A DNA stretch of 45,814 nt from Armatimonadota bacterium. GTDB taxonomy: Bacteria > Cloacimonadota > Cloacimonadia > Cloacimonadales > TCS61. The position numbers were made by a program, and so were the translations under genes. Each line of letters begins with the position of its first letter. Within the stretch, counting starts at the first letter, position 1. Positions 1 to 953 of this stretch are shown one piece after another. Below the pieces are notes generated by a model. The model saw nothing but the letters and a program-made list of their open reading frames with translations. It did not search any database and was not told the DNA's origin. The stretch lies in NCBI GenBank assembly GCA_013203665.1, contig JABMPU010000087.1:1-45814 (forward strand), read 5' to 3'.

Positions 1-98
1 ACCTTATCGCTATCGACCGTGAATTTATGGTTGAGAATTTTAAAACTAACTTTGATAGGAAAGCACTTTGGGTGAACAGGATTGTTTTAAAATTGTAA
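1..98 (+). CDS. C-terminal end of an unidentified CDS, 5' truncated by window edge (..LIAIDREFMVENFKTNFDRKALWVNRIVLKL*)
   Basis: Frame 3 is open from the window start to TAA at 96-98; too short to classify. Confidence 0.45.
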   Translation, partial: LIAIDREFMVENFKTNFDRKALWVNRIVLKL

Positions 99-129
99 AT
101 GAGAGACAGGTCGCGACCTGTCTCTCATT
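98..129. repeat. Perfect 32-bp palindrome AATGAGAGACAGGTCGCGACCTGTCTCTCATT (REP-like)
   Basis: Read directly; equal to its own reverse complement. Lies just 3' of the RAYT gene and overlaps the stop of the preceding CDS. Confidence 0.9.
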
Positions 130-148
130 GTTCCAATTCTATAAAATA

Positions 149-781
149 TTAATCCTGTTTCCATAACAGCGGATTTTTTTCTATGTAATCTGATATCCTA
201 TTCAATTCTTCATTATTGCGGATGATGTGATCGTAGAATGAACGTTGCCATTGAAATTCTTTTAATCCGGATTGATGGATCAATTTTGATGTTGTGGTTT
301 TAAATGCACCGACCAATTCGGATATTGATTTTATTTTACGTAGGGACAACTCGTGAGTTGTCCCTGTTTTTTTCCCAGATCCTATTTTTTTCCCAGATCC
401 TATTTTTTTATCAGATCCTATTTTTTTATCAGTCCCTGTTTTTTTATCAGTCCCTGTTTTTTTATCAGTCCCTGTTTTTTTATCAGACAGGTCGCGACCT
501 GTCTCTACGTTTACATTAATTATTTGAATTATAATATGAACATGATTCGGCATTACAACGGATTTGATTATTTTAATATATTCAAATTGATTTTCCAACC
601 ATTTTATTCTATCCTGAATAATCCGACCTGCACCTTTCAATTTCATTTCGTTATTCTGCACACGTCCAAAATATTCCAGCATTCCTTTCGTGCAAATAGT
701 CACAAAATAATATCCCGGTGTGGAATAATCGTAGCCTGCCAACCGATTTCGTTTACGTTTGTAAATCATGATTTCACACAT
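149..781 (-). CDS. REP-associated tyrosine transposase (RAYT, IS200/IS605-like Y1_Tnp family)
   Basis: Typical N-terminus (RKRNRLAGYDYSTPGYYFVTICTK) and HUH motif VMPNHVHIII; conserved C-terminus (FQWQRSFYDHIIRNNEELNRISDYIEKNPLLW). Alternative start at MIYKRKRNR (769). Confidence 0.9.
   Translation of the reverse strand: MCEIMIYKRKRNRLAGYDYSTPGYYFVTICTKGMLEYFGRVQNNEMKLKGAGRIIQDRIKWLENQFEYIKIIKSVVMPNHVHIIIQIINVNVETGRDLSDKKTGTDKKTGTDKKTGTDKKIGSDKKIGSGKKIGSGKKTGTTHELSLRKIKSISELVGAFKTTTSKLIHQSGLKEFQWQRSFYDHIIRNNEELNRISDYIEKNPLLWKQD
342..365. repeat. REP-like palindrome AGGGACAACTC-GT-GAGTTGTCCCT inside the RAYT CDS
   Basis: 11-bp perfect arms, 2-nt centre; flanked by ACGT. Confidence 0.9.
361..484. 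repeat. 18-bp tandem repeat array (about 7 units, CCT[G/A]TTTTTTT[CCC/ATC]AG[AT/TC]) in-frame in the RAYT CDS, encoding DKKTGT/DKKIGS/GKKIGS
   Basis: Period of 18 nt seen directly; protein shows DKKTGTDKKTGTDKKTGTDKKIGSDKKIGSGKKIGSGKKTGT. Confidence 0.9.
485..504. repeat. REP-like perfect palindrome AGACAGGTCGCGACCTGTCT inside the RAYT CDS
   Basis: Perfect 20-bp palindrome followed by CTACGT, mirroring ACGTAG at the other end of the array. Confidence 0.9.
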
Positions 782-791
782 TTCCCCGTAG

Positions 792-812
792 GGAACAGTT
801 TCAAACTGTTCC
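792..812. repeat. REP-like palindrome GGAACAGTTT-C-AAACTGTTCC
   Basis: 10-bp arms, 1-nt centre, just upstream of the RAYT start. Confidence 0.85.
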
Positions 813-842: not shown

Positions 843-929
843 TTATTATCCATCGATTTTCCCAAAGAATTTAAATCGATAAAAGTTAAGTCAAGAATAA
901 AATCCTAATCATCTCTCGTATTAAAGAGT

Positions 930-953
930 AGGGACAGGTCACGACCTGTCCCT
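930..953. repeat. REP-like palindrome AGGGACAGGTC-AC-GACCTGTCCCT
   Basis: 11-bp perfect arms; same core as 98-129 and 485-504. Confidence 0.9.

Follow-up and report, generated by a model that had tools for sequence, protein, structure and literature searches.

Two REP-type hairpins and a seven-unit repeat lie in frame inside a RAYT gene in the window, the whole stretch of 45,814 nucleotides that was analysed, and this observation is confirmed as real. Quite probably, the locus represents the REPtron of a subclass-2.4-like RAYT, in which GTAG hairpins are situated around and inside the gene and a self-derived doublet has been tolerated, expanded in its spacer, and preserved at the level of DNA or mRNA. 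Quentin, Siguier, Chandler and Fichant (BMC Genomics 2018; PMC6006769), in the sections consulted, describe in-frame REPs between HuH and Y as a unique feature of TnpA-Y1 subclass 2.4, together with REPs of double-foot form and short repeats in a variable insertion, and judge the insertion loop to be peripheral to the active site. In-gene hairpins are thus already published for the subclass, and the window is a striking further example.

Structure of the in-gene cassette

The cassette, an inverted REP doublet with a tandem array as its spacer, occupies 173 bp at 338..510 on the minus strand and corresponds to residues about 91-149. The inverted ACGTAG[G/A]GACA ends and the length of roughly 170 bp given in the first-pass annotation hold, the ends being exact (ACGTAGGGACA at 338-348 and TGTCTCTACGT at 500-510); its outer limit of 512 has to be corrected to 510. 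The order on the coding strand is REP 1, the seven units, and REP 2, which has its GTAG foot on the opposite strand. REP 1, on the gene's 5' side (485..508, minus strand), consists of a GTAG foot (CTAC at 505-508 on the plus strand) and the AGACAGGTCGCGACCTGTCT hairpin, and encodes VETGRDLS. REP 2 has the opposite orientation (340..365, plus strand) and consists of GTAG at 340-343 and the AGGGACAACTCGTGAGTTGTCCCT hairpin; its coding strand is read as TGTTHELSL. The ORF stays open throughout, as had been claimed.

Each of the seven 18-bp units, all in frame (GATAAAAAAACAGGGACT and variants; 359..484, minus strand), is composed of spacer and the AGGGAC outer REP arm; the array thus resembles an expanded doublet interior. 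The repeats, previously counted as about seven, are exactly seven coding-strand 18-mers, encoding DKKTGT (three), DKKIGS (two), GKKIGS, and GKKTGT, and the final one runs into the second palindrome. TRF places the array at 362-488 with 7.1 copies and 92% matches.

Folded as ssDNA, the cassette has a z-score of -5.9 (0 of 200 shuffles as good), and the two REP hairpins are the sole structure in the centroid. As RNA, it also forms strong hairpins (z = -6.6, 0 of 200 shuffles as good). The GTAG feet at 340-343 on the plus strand and 508-505 on the minus strand have the mutual orientation seen in BIMEs and REPINs, and, judged from its sequence, the 173-bp cassette is an inverted REP doublet of this type with an expanded spacer. 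It shares with them two opposite GTAG-footed hairpins around a spacer, but differs in lying inside the RAYT gene, in being translated, in having a tandem array as the spacer, and in not being multicopy in the source genome.

Identification of the transposase and its predicted disordered linker

The gene (149..781, minus strand) encodes 210 amino acids, and the likely start codon is the ATG at 769, since homologues begin with MIxxRKRNR. Its identification as a RAYT (TnpA-REP, a Y1 HuH-Tyr transposase) is borne out by the Pfam profile, the motifs, and the predicted fold. The product matches Y1_Tnp (PF01797) at 35.6 bits, above the cut-off, whereas its score against the NCBIfam model REP_Tyr_transpos (57.1 bits) is below the curated cut-off of 80 bits. 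Relatives without the array score 54-79 bits against the latter model, and L067, which has no insert, also stays below 80 bits (79.2), indicating that scores under the cut-off are general in this clade and not an effect of the insert. The motifs are MPNHVH, WQ, and YIEKNP. Compared with the subclass 2.4 motifs (NH[IFV]H, WQ, and YIxNNP), there is one departure, K for N, and YIEKNP is present in 4 of 84 sampled genes. The AlphaFold model (mean pLDDT 75.8) gives 4er8, the Escherichia coli RAYT with a REP hairpin, as the best match among all PDB chains (E 1.2e-5), and also matches 2vjv.

Outside the linker, dN/dS against the two nearest relatives is 0.127-0.130, a Nei-Gojobori estimate on short genes, and the core evolves under purifying selection. 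A spurious ORF or a pseudogene is ruled out by this core value of about 0.13 and by the predicted fold, despite an in-frame TAG in the closest relative. In the linker, the values against the same relatives are 0.35 and 0.65, based on few sites. The linker is disordered in the AlphaFold model (residues about 90-150, pLDDT mostly below 50), and the disordered cassette residues are placed after the HuH strand (80-87) and before the helix at 153-170.

The window gene also has the in-frame REP between HuH and Tyr that is typical of subclass 2.4 (RAYT group 4). According to the consulted sections of PMC6006769, the two share the HuH-WQ-Y motifs with a variable insertion between β3 and αC, the GTAG REPs both around and within the gene, the preserved frame, the double-foot forms, and the short repeats. 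The window differs from what is described there in its inverted doublet with seven 18-bp units, its genome, which is Cloacimonadota-like to judge by the nearest named relatives, and the lack of dispersed REPs found in that genome. The distance from HuH to Tyr is 116 residues in the window, compared with a median of 88 in the subclass (PMC6006769, same sections).

REP copies at the locus and in the genome

GTAG-footed hairpins also flank the gene. One is found on its 5' side (928..953, plus strand; GTAG at 928-931), and a second REP type, GTAGGGAACAGTTTCAAACTGTTCC (788..812, plus strand), lies with its GTAG in the RAYT 5' leader, at a distance of 20-40 nt from the likely ATG, as a single strict copy in the genome. 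On the 3' side, a REP-like palindrome at 98..129, with no strand assigned, has a core identical to that of REP 1 and no GTAG foot. The palindromes at 104-125, 344-365, 485-506, and 932-953 agree with the earlier claim that the internal copies have REP anatomy (GTAG foot and hairpin) and match the flanking ones. Palindromes of the GTAGGGAACAGTTTCAAACTGTTCC type precede or sit within three related RAYT genes (L017, L024, and L046).

The strict REP pattern is found at three places of the locus (102-125, 342-365, and 930-953), and REP 1 (485-506) is a fourth copy, imperfect at its inner foot. The whole genome contains no copies of the strict pattern outside the RAYT locus, whereas a looser GTAG pattern is uninformative, giving fewer matches than its own control. 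An apparent additional copy on contig C115 was rejected as the same place as 102-125: window positions 1-140 are identical to the end of C115 in the same assembly, a 140-bp exact contig-end overlap, so that the two contigs are probably neighbours in the genome. Among 59 genomes (the source and relatives), the strict pattern occurs only in the source and in G034, the home of an 85% identical relative. A dispersed REP family was thus rejected, because all copies sit at the RAYT locus, and ongoing REP mobilisation would be conjectural, since REPs of the type are absent elsewhere in the genome. Further copies of the cassette, which the first-pass annotation had proposed to search for, were not found in the genome. 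Movement of the cassette as a unit was likewise rejected; the palindrome core alone is shared. Of the proposal that the gene was invaded by its own substrate, the in-frame REPs stand, but the linker is a recurrent, published site and the expected REP copies outside the locus are missing.

Comparison with close relatives

The 85% identical gene from Cloacimonadota (L015/L044) contains the same doublet with one unit, compared with seven in the window. L020 has one double-foot REP, and L016/L045, from Ca. Tenebribacter burtonii, has a REP and spacer unit repeated 2.6 times with a period of 33. When the window gene, L044/L015, and L020 are aligned, homology picks up again at the feet, GTAG and CTAC, indicating that the edges of the insert are those of the palindromes, as had been anticipated. 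The homologues do not all share a non-repetitive linker of the same length, which would have spoken against an insert; their linkers vary in length and contain 0, 1, 2, or 3 palindromes. The suggested variable-length linker therefore applies between relatives (one versus seven units), not within a strain. In L015/L044, the closest relative of the window RAYT, an in-frame TAG follows soon after the linker (position 946 onward; LIH*SGLNEFQWQ), which may mean that the gene is decaying or that the sequence contains an error.

A near-empty-site pair is found on another branch, where L067 is without a REP and L065, a close relative of it, has one. After the REP of L065 come 2.8 copies of an 18-bp unit that combines spacer and REP arm, the pattern of the window with a separate origin. 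The 58% identical paralogue in the source genome (L002) has no linker palindrome. The linkers of L026, L019, and L018 contain 30-bp in-frame repeats (DSPIIETANN, AFPGMTDEVE, and NVKTQNIAGT, respectively), and repeat-lengthened linkers thus recur.

Palindromes in the linkers of related genes

We surveyed 84 RAYT genes, taken from the relatives and from a scan of GTDB contigs, for palindromes of at least 9 pairs; the window protein was the starting point of the sampling, which is biased towards its subclass. A linker palindrome is present in 61 of the 84 genes, compared with 1.4 expected from codon-shuffled linkers and two in stretches of the same length immediately before HuH, so the linker palindromes are not due to chance. 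Forty linkers have a single double-foot palindrome, and ten or eleven have two or three. The best palindrome is stem-perfect in 48 of 61; the palindromes were chosen as palindromic, and stem covariation is circular and excluded as evidence. In G065, the RAYTs L063 and L072 carry different internal palindromes (GACGCCCCGCCGGGGCGTC and GACGCATTGCAATGCGTC, respectively), as expected if REPs are enzyme-specific. L029 (855-2049) contains two near-identical tandem RAYT genes with the same internal REP in each.

Where a GT[AG]G foot was found, the reading phases 0, 1, and 2, scored automatically, occur in a ratio of 40:13:0; phase 2 would read TAG. L051, L052, and L054 share one and the same 28-bp palindrome, GTAGGGACAGGTCGCGACCTGTCCCTAC; the identity of their cores is 59-63%, and dS ranges from 1.1 to saturation (infinite). 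The palindrome is read as CRDRSRPVPT in L051 and as VGTGRDLSL in L052 and L054. Translation of the identical palindrome in two phases indicates that the conserved object is a DNA (or RNA) hairpin, not a peptide. That the encoded peptide (the DKKTGT array with its palindrome-encoded ends) is a selected basic, flexible linker or a nucleic-acid-binding tail is accordingly improbable. The array is indeed lysine-rich and in frame, and the strong arrays in sampled linkers (TRF score at least 60) all have periods divisible by three, but the linker sequences of homologues are unrelated, identical DNA is translated in two frames, and dN/dS in the linker rises to 0.35-0.85.

The presence of the hairpin is patchy. 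No linker palindrome is found in 23 of the 84 genes, including L002 and L067, and the hairpin is thus dispensable for the protein family. On well-supported branches, the tree requires the no-palindrome state to have changed at least nine times, indicating that gain and loss recur. Chances are about even that the linker is a permissive loop, one of the few in-gene sites that tolerate REPs landing anywhere, with no role as DNA or protein. Such a loop is consistent with this patchiness, with the relaxed protein-level constraint of a linker disordered in the model, and with the REPs, often dimers, that Di Nocera et al. (2013) report inside other, ordinary genes in the consulted part of PMC3733652. 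The near-perfect stems despite saturated synonymous sites, however, would need very frequent re-insertion, and the source genome is without REPs outside the locus.

The internal REPs match their own flanks better than those of other loci (family means 0.72 and 0.60, respectively), but only 22 of 61 have a copy within about 1.5 kb that matches at 80% or more, so that flanking copies are not the rule. REP 1 of the window has an exact flanking match; the family-wide flank comparison used REP 2 of the window. Of 30 genomes tested, 29 contain the strict double-foot pattern, in 1-43 copies (control pattern, 0-1). Six of the 30 have a single copy, five of them having been sampled because the RAYT linker carries one.

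Proposed origin and maintenance of the hairpins

Under the REPtron reading, the in-gene doublet occupies an exposed loop between the HuH β-strand and helix αC. It may have arrived via the transposase's own ssDNA cut-and-join activity or by duplication from the flanking REPs, and would have been tolerated there owing to the disorder of the loop and its distance from the active site. Slippage or unequal recombination would then have enlarged the spacer and the outer arm of the second REP, from a single 18-bp unit to seven, with only steps divisible by three surviving. The hairpin would be kept as DNA (or mRNA), not as a peptide.

The prevalence of the hairpin, its perfect stems, and its phase independence favour maintenance at the DNA level, whereas its patchy presence and the apparently intact genes without it argue against its necessity. 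A functional cis element, by which the RAYT binds the ssDNA or mRNA of its own gene, limits its expression, or links enzyme and substrate specificity through inheritance, is conceivable but rather doubtful. It would explain a hairpin at one site across many phyla (phylum labels are possibly wrong in places, as many survey records are metagenome bins), the perfect stems, the identical DNA in differing phases, the strong RNA hairpins of the cassette, and the six genomes with a single strict double-foot copy, to the extent allowed by the selection of five of them. Against this, L067 and L002 are natural genes that appear intact without the hairpin, and the no-palindrome state was repeatedly gained or lost. 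In a similarly doubtful reading, the in-CDS hairpin would be under selection as DNA or RNA and not a tolerated insertion: it would be a built-in substrate copy that regulates or travels with the enzyme so that specificity and substrate co-evolve, and would persist across many phyla whatever peptide it encodes.

Intragenic REPs and Rickettsia RPEs, as treated in the consulted part of PMC3733652 and references therein, are likewise small in-frame palindromes in coding genes, often dimers. They are described there in assorted host genes, whereas the host gene in the window encodes the presumed REP-processing enzyme. Neither translation of one identical palindrome in two phases nor a series from 1 to 7 units is found in the consulted sections of PMC6006769 or PMC3733652. 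The survey extends the published in-gene REP pattern with its prevalence (61 of 84) and with the use of both stop-free phases. The locus illustrates that tandem arrays derived from a hairpin can lengthen a loop of a conserved enzyme without loss of the frame. It also presents an enzyme gene as the host for its own presumed substrate, and one DNA hairpin read in two phases and never in the stop phase makes it testable whether such hairpins are neutral passengers replenished by the enzyme or act in cis as control elements.
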